The notes beneath the pieces are model-generated. The model searched no databases. It was not told the origin of the DNA and worked only from the letters and a program-made list of their open reading frames with translations. From NCBI GenBank assembly GCA_947476695.1, contig CANJRD010000004.1, positions 1 to 64,000 of the forward strand: DNA of 64,000 nt, given 5' to 3'. Of this stretch, positions 51,200 through 62,062 are shown in pieces. This stretch comes from Rhodospirillaceae bacterium. Lineage in GTDB: Bacteria; Pseudomonadota; Alphaproteobacteria; Rhodospirillales; Rhodospirillaceae. A program made the translations under genes and the position numbers. The number at the start of each line of letters is the position of its first letter. Position 1 is the stretch's first letter.

Positions 51200-51422
51200 G
51201 TCGCGACACGGGACGATCACTAGAGATTTCAGTGATTTTGCGCCAGTAATGAAGCGGTCACGACTTGGTTATCAGTATAAATCATGTGAAATACCACATG
51301 CCTTGCGGTTATAGCCGCGACGCCCTCGGCGACAGATCTGCCGGCCGAGCTTAAGATTCCGAGAGCCTGGGCAATTGACTGATTTCGCTCTAAATCTTCA
51401 GCTGTTGCGAGGGAGAGGGTGG

Positions 51423-52979
51423 ATGACGACAGACATGCTTGGCCTCAGTAAGCGACGCTTTCTGCAGGGGGCGGCGATGACCGCCGCATCGCTAACTTCA
51501 CTTGGTGTCCGCAAGGCGTACGCAGCAGAGACCTACGACATCATCGTGATTGGCGCCGGAACGGCGGGACTGCCTCTCGCGATTGCCGCGGCCGACCGCG
51601 GCGCGCGTGTTCTGGTCATCGAGAAATCAGGACAGATCGGCGGCACGTTGTTCATGTCCGGCGGACAGATGGCGGCTGCCGGCACCCGTATTCAAAAGGA
51701 TAAGGGGATCAAGGATACGCCTGATCTGTTCTTCGACGACGTCATGCGCCTGAGCAACAAGAAGGCCGACACCGCGATTGTGAGGACCTACGTCAACAAC
51801 GCCACTGCCGCCATCGCATGGCTTGAAAATCTCGGGTTCCGGGCCCGCGAAAGCGATCCGATCATGGGCGACGCCCATGCTGGATTCAGCATCCCGCGCT
51901 ACTTCCAAGGTCCTGAGTCCGGGCGCTCCATTCTCAAAGTGCTTCGCCCGGCGTTCATGAGCGGCGTCGCCAACGGGCGGATCAATATCCTCAATTGGAC
52001 CAGCGCGGCCGAGCTGGTGATGTCGGCGGATCGCAGCGTGACCGGGGTCATCGCCGAGGATGAGAGCGGCATTCGTACGCAATACAACGCGCGTCATGTG
52101 GCCATCACCTCTGGCGGCTATTGCGCCAATCTCAAGAAGTTCAAGGAGCTGACGGGACGCAGCATCCACAGCCGCGCGGTATACGCGTTCAGCCAGGGCC
52201 AGGGCATTGATTTGGGCGTGGCCGCCGGTGGCGTGGTGCGCGGCGGCGAGCAACAGGTCCTGTCCGCGGTTCTGCTTGCGGATCGCAGTTACCCCAGCCC
52301 TGCGGCGGTTGGGTCAGGTCCTAGCACCGAAGGCGCGCGGATGTTCGGTACTTTGTTGAGCAGCGATCCGCGACGCCGTCCGCCTTGGGAGATTCGCCTC
52401 AACAAGCAGGGGCAACGCTACTTCGCCGAAGACAGTGTCGACGTCGATTACGCACAGCGCGCGTTCTCCGATCAACCGGAGCAGCGCACCTGGATCGTCT
52501 ATGATCAGGAAATCTTCGAGAAGGCGCCGCCGCTGATTCGCGGCAGCAAGGAAGAAGTCGCCGGACTGTTCGATTTGCATCCGATGTTCTACGCCGCGCC
52601 CACGCTGACGGAACTTGCGGGCAAGATCGGCCTGCCGGCGGCGGCTGTGACGGCGAGTGTGGCGACGTACAACGCCTCCGTGGCCAGCAAGAACGATGCT
52701 TTCGGGCGGCAGTTCATGCCGCAGTCCATCGCGCGCGGCCCCTTCTATGCGATCGAATTGTCGGCCCTCAATGTGATCGGCTATGCCGGTCTCACGGTCG
52801 ACAAAGAGATGCGCGTCCTGCGATCCGACGGCAGTCCCGTCCGGAATCTCTACGCCGCTGGCGAAGTCATCGGCGCCGCAGCGACATGCGGCGACACCAT
52901 GGTGAGCGGCGGATCGGTGACTCCGGCCATCGTCTTCGGCCGCATGCTTGGGCAAAAGCTGCTGTCGCAAAAGGCGTAA
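51423..52979 (+). CDS. Tat-exported FAD-dependent oxidoreductase (fumarate reductase-like), paralogue
   Basis: A 518-aa flavoprotein from ATG 51423, with GGAGAGG upstream. The Tat signal is SKRRFLQGAAMTAASLTSLG. FAD motif IVIGAGTAGLPLAIAAADRG with the following EKSGQIGGTLFMSGGQMAAA; C-terminal FAD contact LYAAGEVIGAAATCGDTMVS and TPAIVFGRMLGQ. The PDLFFDDVMRLSNKKADTAI segment is shared with the protein at 8712-10205 (DLHFDDVMRISRGRADAALV), as is the SIPRYFxxxExGRxIL block. They are paralogues. The substrate is unknown. It is divergent from a TonB-dependent receptor across a shared palindrome, so uptake and oxidation of one ligand is plausible. Confidence 0.85.
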   Translation: MTTDMLGLSKRRFLQGAAMTAASLTSLGVRKAYAAETYDIIVIGAGTAGLPLAIAAADRGARVLVIEKSGQIGGTLFMSGGQMAAAGTRIQKDKGIKDTPDLFFDDVMRLSNKKADTAIVRTYVNNATAAIAWLENLGFRARESDPIMGDAHAGFSIPRYFQGPESGRSILKVLRPAFMSGVANGRINILNWTSAAELVMSADRSVTGVIAEDESGIRTQYNARHVAITSGGYCANLKKFKELTGRSIHSRAVYAFSQGQGIDLGVAAGGVVRGGEQQVLSAVLLADRSYPSPAAVGSGPSTEGARMFGTLLSSDPRRRPPWEIRLNKQGQRYFAEDSVDVDYAQRAFSDQPEQRTWIVYDQEIFEKAPPLIRGSKEEVAGLFDLHPMFYAAPTLTELAGKIGLPAAAVTASVATYNASVASKNDAFGRQFMPQSIARGPFYAIELSALNVIGYAGLTVDKEMRVLRSDGSPVRNLYAAGEVIGAAATCGDTMVSGGSVTPAIVFGRMLGQKLLSQKA

Positions 52980-56202: not shown

Positions 56203-56490
56203 TTAGCTCTCGCCGACCAGATCGGTCATCAGTTTGCGGATCAGCGCTTCGCGTTCGATTTTCAGGCGTGCTTCCAACGCGGCGTCGGGCACAAGGTTTT
56301 CGATCTCGGCCGCCACATCGATCTGGTGACGCTTCAGGATGTGCTCCAGCAGCATCTGCCGGTCCTTCACGACCCACAGCTCTTTGGTGAGCGTCAGCAG
56401 CGCCTCACCGACTTTATCGACATCTTCCGGGTGCAACGTTTTCCGCCTGCGCGGCTTGGCCTGCGCCGGATGCAGTTTTGGCGCTGTCAT
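56203..56490 (-). CDS. Small helical partner of methyltransferase 1
   Basis: A 95-aa protein from ATG 56490, overlapping the stop of the upstream methyltransferase by 4 nt. The N-terminus is basic and disordered (MTAPKLHPAQAKPRRRKT). Residues 25-90 are all helical: ALLTLTKELWVVKDRQMLLE, HILKRHQIDVAAEIENLVPD and AALEARLKIEREALIRKLMT. It is clearly homologous to the product of 61339-61617 (ALLRMNTELLSELWILRDRV, YAPDAAFDAELQRERDRVV), and both are coupled to a methyltransferase. I recognise no Pfam-level family. A subunit or regulator of its methyltransferase is the natural reading. Confidence 0.75.
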   Translation of the reverse strand: MTAPKLHPAQAKPRRRKTLHPEDVDKVGEALLTLTKELWVVKDRQMLLEHILKRHQIDVAAEIENLVPDAALEARLKIEREALIRKLMTDLVGES

Positions 56491-57548
56491 GGCTTGCGAC
56501 CGTAAGTGACCCACGGATAGTTCCCTGGCTGCAGACCGTAGGACTTCGTATCCACAAAGCCGGCCTCCGTCAGCACGGCAGCCATGTCCAGTGTCGAGGC
56601 CCCCCGCCAGAACGGTTCACCGCCGTAGGTCGCAAGATAATCCGTGCGCCAGGCCGCACGCTTGGTCATGGCGCGATAGGGCGCGACGTCTCCGAACAGC
56701 AGATCGCCACCCGGCCGCAACACGCGGAAGGCTTCGCGCACGATGTCGCGGATCGCCTCCACCGGCAATTCATGCAGCACGATGTAAGAGGTGACGAGGT
56801 CCTGCGAGGCATCCGACAAGGTGCTCGCGGCGCCGTCCGCTTGGATCAGCCGCCACGAAAGGCCAGCTGCGTTCGCATTGCGCTGCGCCTGCAGCAACTG
56901 TGCATGGCTGATGTCGCAGGCGGTGATCTGAGCTTGTGGAAATACCTGCGCGAGTTTCAGCGTATAGGGTCCTGAGCTGCATCCGATCTCGAAGATGTCG
57001 TGATAGTCCAGCCGCGGCGCCTCTTCCGCCACAAGACGACGCTGTTCGTAAAGATCCGCCGGCGCATTACCCGCCGCCGGCGGACGCGGAATTTTGCTCA
57101 AGATATAGCGCTGCAGGAACTCGCCGTGGATGAACCCGAAGTCCTCATGCGCATCCCAGCCGCCGGCGGTGCGGTGGATGGGATAGAGCCAGTACTTCGG
57201 CGGCGTGAAATCGGGATCGGCGGTGAGGGTGGTCGGCCCCTGCTGCGCCCTTGCAAACTGCGGCTTCAGTGCGTCGGCGATGGGTGTGAAGGCTTCGACG
57301 GCCAGCGGCCCATGGTGCACCGCGTGCCATTCACCCATGAGGTTGGCGACGCGCCAAGCGGGTACATCAGCCAGTACGCCCTCGATCTGTTGCGCGCGCG
57401 CACCAAGATCGTCGGCGAGCTTATCTTCGCTCAGGCCCGCCTTGTCGAGCGCGCTCTCCTGTGGTGCGGTCAAGTCGCGACCCACGGTCGACAGGCTTGC
57501 GAGAAAATCGAGCGCGGCGCGGCCGGCCTGCGGCATCACGTACTTCAT
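56487..57548 (-). CDS. SAM-dependent methyltransferase 1 of a duplicated module
   Basis: A 353-aa protein. The C-terminal half is a class I methyltransferase: motif I DIFEIGCSSGPYTLKLAQVF (about 185-204), acidic TACDISHAQLL, and motif IV VTSYIVLHELPVEAIRDIVR. The N-terminal half (about 1-150) is helical with an aromatic segment PPKYWLYPIHRTAGGWDAHE. The end YGLQPGNYPWVTYGRKP is shared with the second methyltransferase (60263-61342, YGLGTRGYPWITRGTKP), as is the pre-motif TPPKYW or APDYYRG block. Its ATG overlaps the MFS stop and its stop overlaps the small partner start. The substrate is unknown and might be the compound handled by the MFS protein. Confidence 0.85.
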   Translation of the reverse strand: MKYVMPQAGRAALDFLASLSTVGRDLTAPQESALDKAGLSEDKLADDLGARAQQIEGVLADVPAWRVANLMGEWHAVHHGPLAVEAFTPIADALKPQFARAQQGPTTLTADPDFTPPKYWLYPIHRTAGGWDAHEDFGFIHGEFLQRYILSKIPRPPAAGNAPADLYEQRRLVAEEAPRLDYHDIFEIGCSSGPYTLKLAQVFPQAQITACDISHAQLLQAQRNANAAGLSWRLIQADGAASTLSDASQDLVTSYIVLHELPVEAIRDIVREAFRVLRPGGDLLFGDVAPYRAMTKRAAWRTDYLATYGGEPFWRGASTLDMAAVLTEAGFVDTKSYGLQPGNYPWVTYGRKP

Positions 57549-58909
57549 GCGCGCGCCTCCGTGGCGGGGGCGTCGTCAAGGCGATACCGGCTCAGGATCA
57601 AAGCGCTGAACAGCTGCAATACCGCAGGCGCTGCGATGCAGATGTAAATCGCCAGCAAAGCGCTTTCGCTTTGCACGACATCGCGGCCTGTGGACTCGAT
57701 GTAGCCCATGCTGCCCAGAACGATGCCGGTGGCCGCTGCGGCCAAGGCAAACGAGGCTTTCTCCACGGTTGTGTATACCCCGGCGAAGATGCCCTCGCGT
57801 CGCAAGCCCGTGCGCTTGAAGTCATAGGCGATGGTCTCGGGCAGCAGCGTCTGCCCGACCAGAAGCAACCCGCCGGCGGTGATGCCCAGCACGATACCGC
57901 GCGCGTGAATGGCCCAACCCGGCTCCGCCGCGCTGGCCGTCAGGAACGAGAGATTGGCCATGCCGTAGACCGCGCTCGCGACGTAGAAGGTTTTCTTCTT
58001 CCCGAATGTGATGCTCATCTTCAGCCAGAACGGCTGTGTGACGAACGTGGCTACCGATTTGATCAGGAAGAAATAGCTCATCACCAAATAGCTCGATTTC
58101 AACAGCTGTATGAACAGAAACGGCGTGATGGCGGTATTCACCGCCAAGCCGAAAAGGTTCAGCGTCTTCATGCCCATCAAGCAGACGAACGGCTGGTTGC
58201 CGGCCGCGAGCCGAAATTGTTGCGCGAGCGAATAGCCGTGATCGATCACGCGCGTGGTGTAACGGGCGTTTTTGGTCGCAAAGAAGCAGACGATGCAGGT
58301 CGCAACGACGATGATGGCAACAACGGTCGCCATGACGCGGTGGCCCGCCATGCCGCCGCCGTAAGCCGCAATCAACTGCGGGCCGACGAAAGAGCCGATA
58401 ATCTGGCCAAGCGCTACCGCCGCCACGCGTAGCGACATCAGGTACGCGCGCTCGCGCGCGGAGTCCGTCATCTCGGCGGGCATGGCGATATACGGGATAA
58501 CGAACATCGCATAGCCCGTGGCGTTGGCCAGCAAGGCGAAGGCGACGATGGCCGTGCGCATCGTCACGTCTTCAAGCATGGGAATGCTGAACAACAGCCA
58601 GAACGACAATCCGCTCGTCAGGCCGCCGACCAGAAGAAACGGCCGCCGCCGTCCCCAACGGCTGACGGTGCGGTCGCTGGCCAATCCGATGAAAGGGTCG
58701 ACGGCGGCGTCGTAGACCTTCGACAGGCCCAGCAGCAGGCCGGCTGTGACCGCCGCGATGCCGACGAAGTTGACGAGGTAGCTGAGCAGCAGGACCGTGT
58801 TGGCCTGGAACATCGCCGACATCGCGAAGCTACCCAGCGCCCAGCCCAGCGCCAGCCCTCGCGGGATGCGGTTATTCTCATCGACGGCCGAGGGTGATTG
58901 CGTTGTCAT
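57545..58909 (-). CDS. MFS transporter of the GPH (glycoside-pentoside-hexuronide symporter) type
   Basis: A 454-aa inner-membrane protein with about 12 helices. The start is IPRGLALGWALGSFAMSAMF. VYDAAVDPFIGLASDRTVSR with WGRRRPFLLVGG is the GPH signature (DxxxGxxxDRTxxRxGRRRP). The middle loop DHGYSLAQQFRLAAGNQPFV is also typical. GPH proteins symport sugars or related small molecules with cations; the exact substrate is not visible. First gene of a minus-strand operon with methyltransferase 1 and its partner, divergent from the serine hydrolase gene 148 bp away. Confidence 0.85.
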   Translation of the reverse strand: MTTQSPSAVDENNRIPRGLALGWALGSFAMSAMFQANTVLLLSYLVNFVGIAAVTAGLLLGLSKVYDAAVDPFIGLASDRTVSRWGRRRPFLLVGGLTSGLSFWLLFSIPMLEDVTMRTAIVAFALLANATGYAMFVIPYIAMPAEMTDSARERAYLMSLRVAAVALGQIIGSFVGPQLIAAYGGGMAGHRVMATVVAIIVVATCIVCFFATKNARYTTRVIDHGYSLAQQFRLAAGNQPFVCLMGMKTLNLFGLAVNTAITPFLFIQLLKSSYLVMSYFFLIKSVATFVTQPFWLKMSITFGKKKTFYVASAVYGMANLSFLTASAAEPGWAIHARGIVLGITAGGLLLVGQTLLPETIAYDFKRTGLRREGIFAGVYTTVEKASFALAAAATGIVLGSMGYIESTGRDVVQSESALLAIYICIAAPAVLQLFSALILSRYRLDDAPATEARA

Positions 58910-59057
58910 GTCGTCCGACTCTTCAAGTCGGCCGGGGGGAAGTCAATCGCATAGGGCAGGGGCGACCGCAGTGCGACACGCCCTGTCGGGAAGACTCCGG
59001 TTCCGCCGATTTCCTCGGTAGACTGAGATCAACGAGGGCAACCGCACCGGACGTCGC

Positions 59058-60248
59058 ATGGTCAACGCTTGGAAAATCGCCGGTCTTATCGTCGCACTTG
59101 GCACGGGGAACGTCGCGGCCAGTGAAGACGACGAGGCGCTTTATATGCAGCGCTTCCAGGCCGCTGCCGGTCGCGCCATGGAATCCTACGATCCGCTTGA
59201 GGCGGTGGCCGGCGCGGGCAAGGTACAGCCGTTGCCGACTGCCACGAACCAGCGCGCGATCAGCTCTGGCGCACTTGAACAGGCGCGCGCTTACGCGGCG
59301 GCGAACAATTCGAAGGCACTGCTGATCTGGCACGATGGCCGCCTTGTCGCCGAGACCTACTTCGGCGGCACGGACGCGAACACGCTGCTCGTTTCGCGCT
59401 CCATGGCCAAGCCGATTGGCGCCATCGCCGTCGGACGCGCGATATCGCGCAAGGCCATTCGTTCGCTCGATCAGCCGATGAGCGATTCCATCCCCGAGTG
59501 GCGCAACACGCCGAAGGCCCCGACGCTGGTGCGTCACATCCTCGACATGCGCTCCGGCTTGCTGGGCCAAGGCGCCAGTCGCGATCCTGCCAGCATCTTG
59601 AATCGCGCTTATCTGCATCCGCGCCATGGCGAGATCATCGTCAACGAGTATCCTCTCACCAACGTTCCCGGCGAGGTCTACGACTATTCCAACGCCACCG
59701 GCGATCTGGCGGCCGTGCTGATCGAGCGCGCGACAAAAATACGCTACGGTGAATTCGTATCGCGTGAGGTGCTTGCGCCGTTGGGTGCGGCCGGGGGTAA
59801 GATTTGGACTAGCCGTGAAGGCGGTCTGGCGCATTCCGGCTGCTGCATCCTTTTGCCGGCGCAAACCTGGATGCGGCTTGGTGTTGCATTGCTGAACAAC
59901 GGCATGTGGAACGGCCGACAATATCTGCCGAAGGGCTATGTCGAAGCGATGCGCACGCCAACTGCCGTCAACCCAACGTATGGCTTGGGTGTCTATGCGT
60001 CGAAAACCTATGTGGAGCGGACCTTCTACGGACGCCCCAATCAAGGTCTGACAAGCGCCTATCAAAGCGAGCCTTACGAGGCGCCCGATGTCTTCCTGTT
60101 CGATGGCAATGCGCATCAAGTGCTTTATATGATCCCGTCGCAAAAGCTGGCGATCTTGCGCATGGGCGATATGCCACCGGCGACGCCGGAATGGGACAAC
60201 GCGGTGCTCCCCAACATTATCCTGCGCGACATGGCCAGGCGGAAGTAA
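59058..60248 (+). CDS. Exported serine hydrolase, class C beta-lactamase-like
   Basis: A 396-aa protein with signal peptide MVNAWKIAGLIVALGTGNVA. The nucleophile motif is SMAK (Ser115, Lys118) in LVSRSMAKPIGAIAVGRAIS. The second motif YSN (Tyr210-Asn212) is in EVYDYSNATGDL, and GCC/HSG-like residues follow near 260. Family roles include beta-lactamases, D-aminopeptidases and esterases (EstB-like); which applies is unknown. It is periplasmic. First gene of the right arm, followed by methyltransferase 2 14 bp on; its intergenic region is shared with the divergent MFS gene. Confidence 0.85.
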   Translation: MVNAWKIAGLIVALGTGNVAASEDDEALYMQRFQAAAGRAMESYDPLEAVAGAGKVQPLPTATNQRAISSGALEQARAYAAANNSKALLIWHDGRLVAETYFGGTDANTLLVSRSMAKPIGAIAVGRAISRKAIRSLDQPMSDSIPEWRNTPKAPTLVRHILDMRSGLLGQGASRDPASILNRAYLHPRHGEIIVNEYPLTNVPGEVYDYSNATGDLAAVLIERATKIRYGEFVSREVLAPLGAAGGKIWTSREGGLAHSGCCILLPAQTWMRLGVALLNNGMWNGRQYLPKGYVEAMRTPTAVNPTYGLGVYASKTYVERTFYGRPNQGLTSAYQSEPYEAPDVFLFDGNAHQVLYMIPSQKLAILRMGDMPPATPEWDNAVLPNIILRDMARRK

Positions 60249-60262
60249 GCGAGGAGGAAGTC

Positions 60263-61342
60263 ATGGTCAATCTCAGTCAACGCGGCCGTGCGGGTCTGCA
60301 ATTCCTCGGCTCGCTCCAACATTTCTCGTCCAGCACCCTGCGCCCGATGGCGCGGACCGATTTCGAGTCCGATCCTGATGGCGCCGCGCTGATGGCGCAG
60401 CCCAGTAGCGTGGAGGATCAGCGCAAGCGTATCGCCGACGCGCGCGCCGTCGCCGAGCGGTCGCTGAAGTATCGGCAGGAGCGGTTCTATCAAGGCTACG
60501 TCGCACGCGAGAACTTCCTTCGCGCCATTCCCGCGGTAGAGGAACGTCGCGCGGCGTTCGAGGCCCAGAGGTCATCCGTGCCGTCCGACGCGGTCGCGAC
60601 TCTCGATCTCGATCCCAATGTCGTCGCGCCCGATTACTATCGCGGTGTCTCTTGGCACTGCGCGCCAGGCGGCTGGGATGGCTATGACCTCGCCGGCCAT
60701 GCGATTGCGCAAGGTGTCGGACGTTATGTCTTTAGCCGTGGTGGCTACGCGGCGGTGGAAGTCGACGAAGACATCCGCGAGCAACGCCGTCGCGTGCTGC
60801 GACAGTTGCCGAAGAAGTCTTATGGCCGCATCTACGAAGCGGGGTGTGGACCGGGTGTGACGCTGCTTCTCGCACACGAGATGTTCCCCGATGCGGAACT
60901 GATCGGCAGCGATCTCTCGCCTGGTCTTCTGAAGAACGCGCAAGCGACAGCCGCGCGGCTCGGCGTGCCGGTCGACTTCAAGCAACGCGACGCCCGCGCC
61001 ACCCGTGAGCCGGATGCATCGGTCGACGCCGTGATCCTCTATGCCTTAATGCACGAAATGCCGGTGCCTGTTGGCACGGACGTCATCCGTGAAGCCTTCC
61101 GCATCCTCAAACCGGGTGGCGACATTCTGATCAACGATCCGCCACCATTCGCCTGCGTCGATCCGCTGCAAGCGGTGCTGCTCGATTGGGAAACCGAGAA
61201 TCGGGGCGAGCCCTATTTCTCGGAAACCTGTGCCCACCAGTGGGTCGATGCACTGCGCGACCTGGGCTTCACCGCCACCGAATCCTATGGGCTCGGCACC
61301 CGCGGCTATCCCTGGATCACGCGTGGAACGAAGCCCGTATGA
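60263..61342 (+). CDS. SAM-dependent methyltransferase 2 of a duplicated module
   Basis: A 359-aa protein from ATG 60263 (GAGGAGGAAG upstream). The N-terminal half is helical, and YYRGVSWHCAPGGWDGYDLA (about 116-135) corresponds to the PPKYWLYPIHRTAGGWDAHE block of the first methyltransferase. SAM motif I: IYEAGCGPGVTLLLAHEMFP, acidic LIGSDLSPGLL, then LYALMHEMPVPVGTDVIREA and FRILKPGGDILINDPP. The C-terminus YGLGTRGYPWITRGTKP matches its paralogue. The stop overlaps the next ATG by 4 nt. Both methyltransferases share the extended N-terminal domain, which is not standard for UbiE-like enzymes and may hold the partner or substrate site. Confidence 0.85.
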   Translation: MVNLSQRGRAGLQFLGSLQHFSSSTLRPMARTDFESDPDGAALMAQPSSVEDQRKRIADARAVAERSLKYRQERFYQGYVARENFLRAIPAVEERRAAFEAQRSSVPSDAVATLDLDPNVVAPDYYRGVSWHCAPGGWDGYDLAGHAIAQGVGRYVFSRGGYAAVEVDEDIREQRRRVLRQLPKKSYGRIYEAGCGPGVTLLLAHEMFPDAELIGSDLSPGLLKNAQATAARLGVPVDFKQRDARATREPDASVDAVILYALMHEMPVPVGTDVIREAFRILKPGGDILINDPPPFACVDPLQAVLLDWETENRGEPYFSETCAHQWVDALRDLGFTATESYGLGTRGYPWITRGTKPV

Positions 61343-61617
61343 CCAAGTCGCCGGACGATTTCGAAGCGCTTCTGCGCATGAATACCGAGCTCCTGTCGGA
61401 GCTGTGGATCCTGCGCGACCGCGTCGCGGTCCTCGAGAAGCTGTTGGAAGAGAAGGGTGTTGTCTCGCGCGAGGCGATCGATACCTACGCTCCCGATGCC
61501 GCCTTCGACGCGGAGTTGCAGCGCGAACGCGATCGCGTGGTGCGCCAAGTCGCCGGTGCCCCGTGGCAGCTGGACCGCGGCATCGCCGCGCTCACCGGCC
61601 AAAAATCCCAGAAGTAG
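61339..61617 (+). CDS. Small helical partner of methyltransferase 2
   Basis: A 92-aa protein from ATG 61339, overlapping the methyltransferase stop (ATGA). It is helical throughout: FEALLRMNTELLSELWILRD, RVAVLEKLLEEKGVVSREAI, DTYAPDAAFDAELQRERDRV. It aligns with the 95-aa protein at 56203-56490 in the ELW-x(2)-[KR]DR, PDAAxxAxLxxER and VR segments. The arrangement methyltransferase then partner is the same at both loci, so duplication took place as a unit. No known domain. A heteromeric methyltransferase subunit is the simplest proposal. Confidence 0.75.
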   Translation: MTKSPDDFEALLRMNTELLSELWILRDRVAVLEKLLEEKGVVSREAIDTYAPDAAFDAELQRERDRVVRQVAGAPWQLDRGIAALTGQKSQK

Positions 61618-61627
61618 GAGCCATCGA

Positions 61628-62062
61628 ATGGATGCAGGTCCCCCGCCGATCTCTGCCCCGGCGCTCGATCCGGCCGCCGCCAAGGTGCGCGACGCGATCT
61701 GGACGAAGGAGCTGACCATCTATCGCGAACGCGGTAACGGCAACTTCGACTACTACATCCAGAATGTACTGTCGGACTACCTTGGCTGGCCGCCGACGGC
61801 TGCGAAGCCACGCCACGCCGAAGGCCTCGCCGAAACGCGAGCACGGCTGGCGCGCGACAGCAAAGAACAGCTCTCGATGGAGTTGGTCGACTTCGCCCTG
61901 CATGGCGACAACGCGGTGATCTACTACAAGACCCACCGCACACGCCGTCCCGACGGCACGCCGACCGACGAGGTGTTCGAGAATATCCACGTCTGGCTGC
62001 GTGACGGCGCGGATTGGAAGCTGTTTGGGGGTATGTCGCGCCCGGCGGCGCCGCGACCCTAG
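61628..62062 (+). CDS. SnoaL/NTF2-like protein
   Basis: A 144-aa protein from ATG 61628 with AGGAG upstream, starting MDAGPPPISAPALDPAAAKV. The segments VRDAIWTKELTIYRERGNGN, YYIQNVLSDYLGWPPTAAKP and SMELVDFALHGDNAVIYYKT, ending FENIHVWLRDGADWKLFGGM, follow the DUF4440/SnoaL-like cone fold. Such proteins are small-molecule binding or cyclase-like enzymes. Last gene of the right arm, 10 bp after the partner gene. No signal peptide is visible, so it acts in the cytosol. The ligand is not known. Confidence 0.72.
   Translation: MDAGPPPISAPALDPAAAKVRDAIWTKELTIYRERGNGNFDYYIQNVLSDYLGWPPTAAKPRHAEGLAETRARLARDSKEQLSMELVDFALHGDNAVIYYKTHRTRRPDGTPTDEVFENIHVWLRDGADWKLFGGMSRPAAPRP

Follow-up and report, generated by a model that had tools for sequence, protein, structure and literature searches.

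Two gene pairs, each encoding a class I S-adenosylmethionine (SAM)-dependent methyltransferase (MT) with an extended N-terminus and a small helical partner protein of no known family, were studied in a 64,000-nucleotide stretch of DNA from a Rhodospirillaceae bacterium (assembly GCA_947476695.1, contig CANJRD010000004.1, positions 1 to 64,000), hereafter called the window. Each pair, MT-A with partner A and MT-B with partner B, probably constitutes a heteromeric two-subunit small-molecule methyltransferase with a dedicated small subunit, of a kind that serves varied operons. On both arms of the locus the MT and partner genes are coupled by a stop-start ATGA overlap, and a further overlap of this type joins the gene for a GPH transporter to MT-A. 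The two MTs share 32% identity over 361 positions (E 1e-47) and end in YPWVT and YPWIT respectively, and the two partners share 31% identity over 70 positions (E 1e-11). An earlier note on this DNA had claimed ATGA coupling on both arms, homologous partners of 92-95 amino acids and a common YPW[IV]T C-terminus, and all of these were confirmed.

Each pair is kept in orthologous loci, therefore the adjacency of MT and partner in the window is not a chance arrangement. MT-A orthologues of 53-65% identity were found in all 18 other MT-positive genomes of the family (partial in G158) and MT-B orthologues of 54-61% in 17 of the 18 (missing from G158); other MT paralogues mostly stand near 30% identity. 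Twenty loci were fetched around MT-A and MT-B relatives, 19 of which held an orthologue and one (L210) only a relative of 37%. A partner orthologue adjoins or follows the MT-A orthologue in all eight MT-A loci and lies beside the MT-B orthologue in nine of 11; the exceptions are second copies, L209 and L217. The two window pairs are conserved core members of the MT/partner family.

Pairing was then scored in samples anchored on the partner, with adjacency defined as a partner within 200 bp of an MT gene on the same strand. The partner adjoins an MT in 9 of 12 cases in the window's own genome, in 42 of 49 cases in five family genomes (40 loci, picked among the matches listed) and in 10 of 11 cases in nine genomes outside the family, the eleventh lying 772 bp away. 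Trees of MT and partner agree closely for 133 distinct pairs from which identical sequences only had been removed (Spearman 0.896); 300 within-genome shuffles, in which twin assemblies count as separate genomes, gave a mean of 0.395 (sd 0.051, maximum 0.564) and 300 free shuffles a maximum of 0.14. When nearest relatives in another genome were compared, those of MT and of partner came from the same pair in 536 of 1255 cases, with 207 expected by chance. MT and partner copies diverge largely together, and block duplication contributes to this. Absence of co-occurrence elsewhere had been named beforehand as grounds for giving up the pairing; the same genomes were found to hold both partner and MT, mostly side by side and with agreeing trees.

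MT-A and MT-B both exceed the cut-offs of PF13649, PF08241 and PF13847, these models covering the C-terminal half only. An AlphaFold2 model of MT-B (pLDDT 85, pTM 0.88) consists of a helical N-terminus (residues 6-105) and a methyltransferase core, and a structure search with this model placed the core (residues 112-359) among class I small-molecule MTs at Z 17-19, the neighbours including FPP/PSPP methyltransferases, UbiG, Coq5, phosphoethanolamine methyltransferases and DsyB. The best sequence match is a phosphoethanolamine N-methyltransferase (E 1.2e-19, core only). Among 197 distinct MTs, a set from which 19 MTs less than 700 bp from a locus end and short and duplicate ones had been dropped, H132, H264, E265 and E316 are invariant. 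The SAM motif G194/G198/D217 (the glycines of motif I and the acidic residue that follows strand 2) is retained in 97/98/98% of the 125 MTs with a start resembling a twin-arginine (Tat) signal and, somewhat less strictly, in 86/83/100% of the 72 others. H264 aligns near a histidine of a phosphoethanolamine methyltransferase; such a histidine is catalytic in that enzyme. By domain match, predicted fold and SAM motifs the window MTs are members of the class I SAM-dependent methyltransferases, and methyl transfer would be their expected activity. They share with class I small-molecule MTs the Rossmann core and its SAM motifs, and differ from them in a helical N-terminus of ~110 amino acids that is barely covered by matches, in the invariant H132/H264-E265/E316, in the co-encoded small partner and, for most of the relatives examined, in the Tat-like start.

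That the partners belong to no known family, as the earlier note had stated, held in our searches: no Pfam or NCBIfam match was found below E 0.001 (best 0.03 for partner A and 0.0028 for partner B, far short of cut-offs) and no PDB sequence matched below E 0.48. Partner B was predicted by AlphaFold2 to be a helical hairpin (pLDDT 81, pTM 0.53; helices 5-38, 44-48 and 54-86), and a fold search with this model returned no significant match. An alignment of 56 partner sequences contains one invariant and eight nearly invariant positions. Identity as a Trm112-like or other known activator was rejected on the lack of these family and fold matches. A relationship to the N-terminus of the nitrile hydratase alpha subunit was considered and not adopted, its three matches (E 0.027, 8.6 and 9.5) being weak and non-significant. 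The structural matches of the MT core include 6f5z, presumably a complex tied to Trm112-type methyltransferase activators. Trm112 is a zinc-binding protein that serves several unrelated MTs. The window partners resemble such activators as small proteins with a possible stabilising or activating role towards a Rossmann methyltransferase; in contrast to zinc-binding Trm112, they have no Trm112 match, no cysteine and, for partner B, a helical-hairpin prediction.

The family is much expanded. Searching the window's own genome with partner B gave 13 matches at E up to 1. Profile searches of 16-20 kb stretches around the better methyltransferase and partner matches yielded 18 full-length extended MTs and 12 partners, and 18 extended MTs at E <1e-50 were likewise obtained when the MT alignment was run against the whole genome. 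These fall into three groups: MTs whose start is of the twin-arginine type and whose partner lies upstream, MTs with neither that start nor an adjacent partner, and MTs with a downstream partner, the last including both window pairs. The partner was detected in 19 of 73 genomes of the window's family (6 of 23 genera), at 12-38 copies per positive genome, the largest count being 38 in one 3.5-Mb genome. It was also found in 7 of 150 genomes of an order draw (own genome counted) and in 4 of 398 of a phylum draw, in which the three other positive genomes represent three other families. The extended MT (E <1e-50) and DUF1838 (PF08894) were each found in 19 of 73 family and 4 of 398 phylum genomes, and the positive genomes are identical for all three proteins in both samples. 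For the extended MT at most 27 candidates were scored per family genome and at most four per phylum genome, such that its copy numbers are lower bounds and absence means not among the candidates scored; in the partner phylum draw and the DUF1838 searches some genomes held more candidates than were scored or listed. Co-occurrence of the three within the family is phylogenetically non-independent. G178, one of two other members of the window's genus, was negative for partner, MT and DUF1838.

A genome scan gave 257 stretches encoding relatives, from which 79 loci were kept, all from metagenome-assembled genomes labelled mostly as Rhodospirillaceae, Alphaproteobacteria or Gammaproteobacteria. These loci were fetched with a Tat-like MT as query, which biases the adjacency and Tat fractions taken from them, and they feed into the 197-MT set; the kept loci and the genome sets contain some contigs of equal length and so probably share assemblies. 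Gene calls in the fetched loci came from a simple script, and gene starts outside the window were set by rule. A Tat-like start (twin arginine and hydrophobic stretch) was present in 125 of the 197 MTs, compared with 99 of 1107 other long genes of the same loci, which were scanned over a somewhat shorter stretch. The starts mostly carry AxA (127 of 142), and the trait changes at least four times on the MT tree. Of nine such starts, one matched PF10518, below cut-off, and two gave weak matches to NCBIfam TAT models. MT-A and MT-B have no twin-arginine start, and none of the partner sequences inspected has a Tat-like one. Export of the Tat-like MTs appears likely but unproven, as the curated Tat models hardly recognise these starts. 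The principle that Tat heterodimers are carried by hitch-hiking is stated in the abstract of PMC10924467. The arrangement here would be similar, one subunit having a signal and the other none; it differs in that the literature searched, as far as its text was accessible, yielded no comparable SAM methyltransferase. The hitch-hiking heterodimers that are known are mostly redox enzymes.

In the proposed mechanism the large subunit would bind SAM and catalyse the reaction, with its helical N-terminal domain shaping the substrate pocket, and the helical-hairpin protein, made from the transcript of its MT through stop-start coupling, would form a physical complex with it as a dedicated stabiliser, activator or substrate-side cap. 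Certain alpha- and gammaproteobacteria would have duplicated the module many times over, its copies serving different uptake or catabolic operons with TonB receptors, GPH/MFS transporters, hydrolases and oxidoreductases. MT-A/partner A and MT-B/partner B would be non-exported core members. Most other examined copies, with their Tat-like start, may act outside the cytoplasmic membrane, and the signal-less partner may ride along with the exported MT or act before export.

Several observations weigh against such a dedicated two-subunit enzyme. Of the 49 partners sampled in the family, seven have no MT within 200 bp (among them one at the end of a contig and another 429 bp from an MT), the same applies to three of the 12 in the own genome, and 72 of the 197 MTs have no adjacent partner; in locus L109 an array of eight MTs is accompanied by only one partner gene. 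Nor is the partner strictly specific for MTs, because some copies adjoin an ABC transporter gene or an isochorismatase-like hydrolase together with MmgE/PrpD. Agreement of closest matches is above chance yet under half of the cases, and weaker than the tree correlation. Finally, SAM is cytoplasmic, which fits poorly with a methyltransferase exported by Tat.

The contexts in which the partner or the MT stands apart are as follows, the names ABC transporter, CoA transferase, isochorismatase-like and MmgE/PrpD having been assigned by reading the sequences and not by database match. An ABC transporter gene directly precedes a partner paralogue in three genomes (L040:7978-8292, L260:2982-3287 and L270:3173-3502), and the stretches fetched for these loci contain no MT on the strand of the partner. 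An operon in L030 (8024-10910), L245 and L254 consists of a CoA transferase, an isochorismatase-like hydrolase, a partner, MmgE/PrpD and a second partner; relatives of the L030 operon seem to carry an MT near the MmgE/PrpD gene, and the own genome is without that MT. One-strand arrays of up to eight extended MTs were seen in L109 (3-11573) and also in L118, L119 and L123, the latter three without a partner.

Three other explanations were weighed. The partner may be a maturation or export chaperone that holds the folded MT until Tat export and has no place in the active enzyme, as TorD and DmsD do for redox enzymes. The frequency of Tat-like starts is as such a chaperone would require, both overall (125 of 197) and among the 125 partner-adjacent MTs (78), as is the lack of such a start on the partners inspected; however, 47 of the partner-adjacent MTs have no Tat-like start, the core MT-A and MT-B among them, 47 Tat-like MTs have no adjacent partner, and the curated Tat models barely match, which together make this explanation unlikely. 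The partner could also act as a general scaffold or docking element that brings various pathway enzymes and transporters together and has MTs as its commonest client. This would account for the recurring non-MT contexts, namely the ABC transporter, the isochorismatase-like/MmgE-PrpD operon and, again by reading, an NmrA-like gene in L255. We consider it improbable, since adjacency in 42 of 49 sampled partners and the agreement of cognate trees at 0.90 point to a specific partner, and since the MmgE-PrpD operon does hold an MT in L254 and, by reading, in L245, L030 possibly having lost one.

The remaining explanation is that ordinary duplicated MTs have an irrelevant small neighbour, co-occurrence and tree agreement arising from shared ancestry and block co-duplication. 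Within the family, co-occurrence does follow genera, with one exception inside the window's genus, and block duplication likewise yields agreeing trees. However, gene order varies among the 133 pairs, with the partner upstream in 85 and downstream in 48, and at least 28 changes of MT/partner adjacency are needed on the MT tree (FastTree; a long branch leads to the window clade). The partners nevertheless persist, with conserved positions in the 56 sequences and, in other families and classes, still next to MTs, and an irrelevant neighbour is accordingly regarded as very unlikely. Of all these explanations, the two-subunit methyltransferase is regarded as the most probable.

The features of the window locus are listed in Table 1. 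All seven genes claimed for this region by the earlier note are present. Its identification of the GPH transporter and the serine hydrolase was upheld by family matches; the NTF2-like gene gave only a weak match, below cut-off. The note had further claimed one divergent promoter of 148 bp for both arms. The size of the gap is correct; the promoter is unproven, and no sigma-70-like site was found in or around 58910-59057.

Table 1. Genes and intergenic region of the MT/partner locus in the window.
Feature	Position	Strand	Description
Partner A	56203..56490	-	95 aa (amino acid) helical protein; putative small partner cognate to MT-A; ATGA overlap
MT-A	56487..57548	-	353 aa class I SAM-dependent methyltransferase, extended N-terminus; PF13649 5.7e-20
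GPH/MFS_2 transporter	57545..58909	-	PF13347 2.2e-63; ATGA-coupled to MT-A
Divergent intergenic region	58910..59057	.	148 bp between the two arms
Serine hydrolase, beta-lactamase-fold, exported-looking	59058..60248	+	PF00144 6.2e-24
MT-B	60263..61342	+	359 aa class I methyltransferase; PF13649 7.4e-20
Partner B	61339..61617	+	92 aa predicted helical hairpin; putative small partner cognate to MT-B; ATGA overlap
NTF2-like protein	61628..62062	+	DUF4440 E 0.001, below cut-off

The mirror-image locus had been proposed as a single methylation and transport pathway, and this was not sustained. The best MT-A and MT-B orthologues share a contig in four relatives and are ~32 kb (G179), 40 kb (G155), 45 kb (G159) and 0.67 Mb (G206) apart; the head-to-head arrangement is therefore local, and the locus was rejected as a conserved unit. 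Neither the serine hydrolase nor the NTF2-like gene had a match in the 20 loci around MT-A and MT-B relatives, and both are local, unconserved passengers. The proposed link to transport was retained in part: in four of the 11 MT-B loci MT-B/partner B is immediately followed by a GPH paralogue (39-42%), and a fifth has a paralogue of 44% at a distance of 4.4 kb. The window transporter was rejected as an orthologue of these, its closest relatives (48-51%) lying elsewhere in the 14 genomes searched. Six of the 79 loci, all gammaproteobacterial (L138, L153, L156, L158, L162 and L166), have a divergent pair of pairs of their own, partner-first on both arms, a Tat-like start being present on only one of the two MTs.

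Names of neighbouring genes were given by reading the sequences and partly by family matches. Among 132 co-directional neighbours of the module the largest clusters were TonB receptor-like proteins (eight distinct), Tat-like alpha/beta hydrolases (five) and GPH transporters (five), the other clusters being many and small. Genes further out encode, among others, FAD dehydrogenases, VanA-type Rieske oxygenases, DUF1838, and M24 and amidohydrolase proteins. Such an assemblage would suit the uptake and catabolism of diverse substrates more readily than one biosynthetic pathway. The VanA-type Rieske oxygenases, which number 18 genes in one cluster (e.g. L091:4628-5758), occur in 11 of 100 loci examined and in none of the own genome, and hint at linked demethylation chemistry. 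In the window a flavoprotein-like gene with a twin-arginine start (51315-52976) lies ~3 kb ahead of the MT/partner locus, and FAD dehydrogenases stand near other MT/partner pairs too, one of them with a twin-arginine start.

DUF1838 was not supported as an operon partner in the family genomes sampled, one copy being found in the 40 partner-anchored loci against 2.3 expected at genome density. It is present in 13 of the 79 kept loci, adjoins an MT/partner pair in two genomes outside the family, G492 and G297, and 18 of 33 DUF1838 open reading frames in the loci have a Tat-like start. Searched for in the family and phylum samples, it was detected in exactly their partner-holding genomes (G000, G489, G297, G492 and 19 of 73 in the family), at 3-38 copies per family genome. 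DUF1838 was named in one paper among those found by literature searches, as far as their text was accessible.

The earlier note was right to call the MT/partner pair undescribed in so far as the pair is real and no description of the family turned up in the accessible portions of the literature searched, an absence that is no proof of novelty. The enzyme superfamily is ordinary; what is unusual is a small subunit without a known family, apparently dedicated to its MT and co-evolving with it, that has been much expanded. The genome-wide expansion, the Tat-like starts of most relatives examined and the co-occurrence with DUF1838 go beyond what the earlier note had noticed. Most striking are how far the family has expanded and that many copies are apparently exported, and the Tat-like starts raise the question of whether a SAM-dependent methyltransferase fold works outside the membrane. 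The matching distribution of DUF1838 points to a possible shared context for both unknown families. A more speculative and rather doubtful extension is that the two-subunit MTs work outside the cytoplasm, the folded, SAM-charged enzyme and its signal-less partner being co-exported by Tat and acting in the periplasm on many imported compounds. If this were true, a periplasmic supply of SAM or a non-methylating use of bound SAM would be implied, and the dozens of paralogous pairs per genome would, with DUF1838, represent an undescribed extracytoplasmic catabolic system of these proteobacteria.

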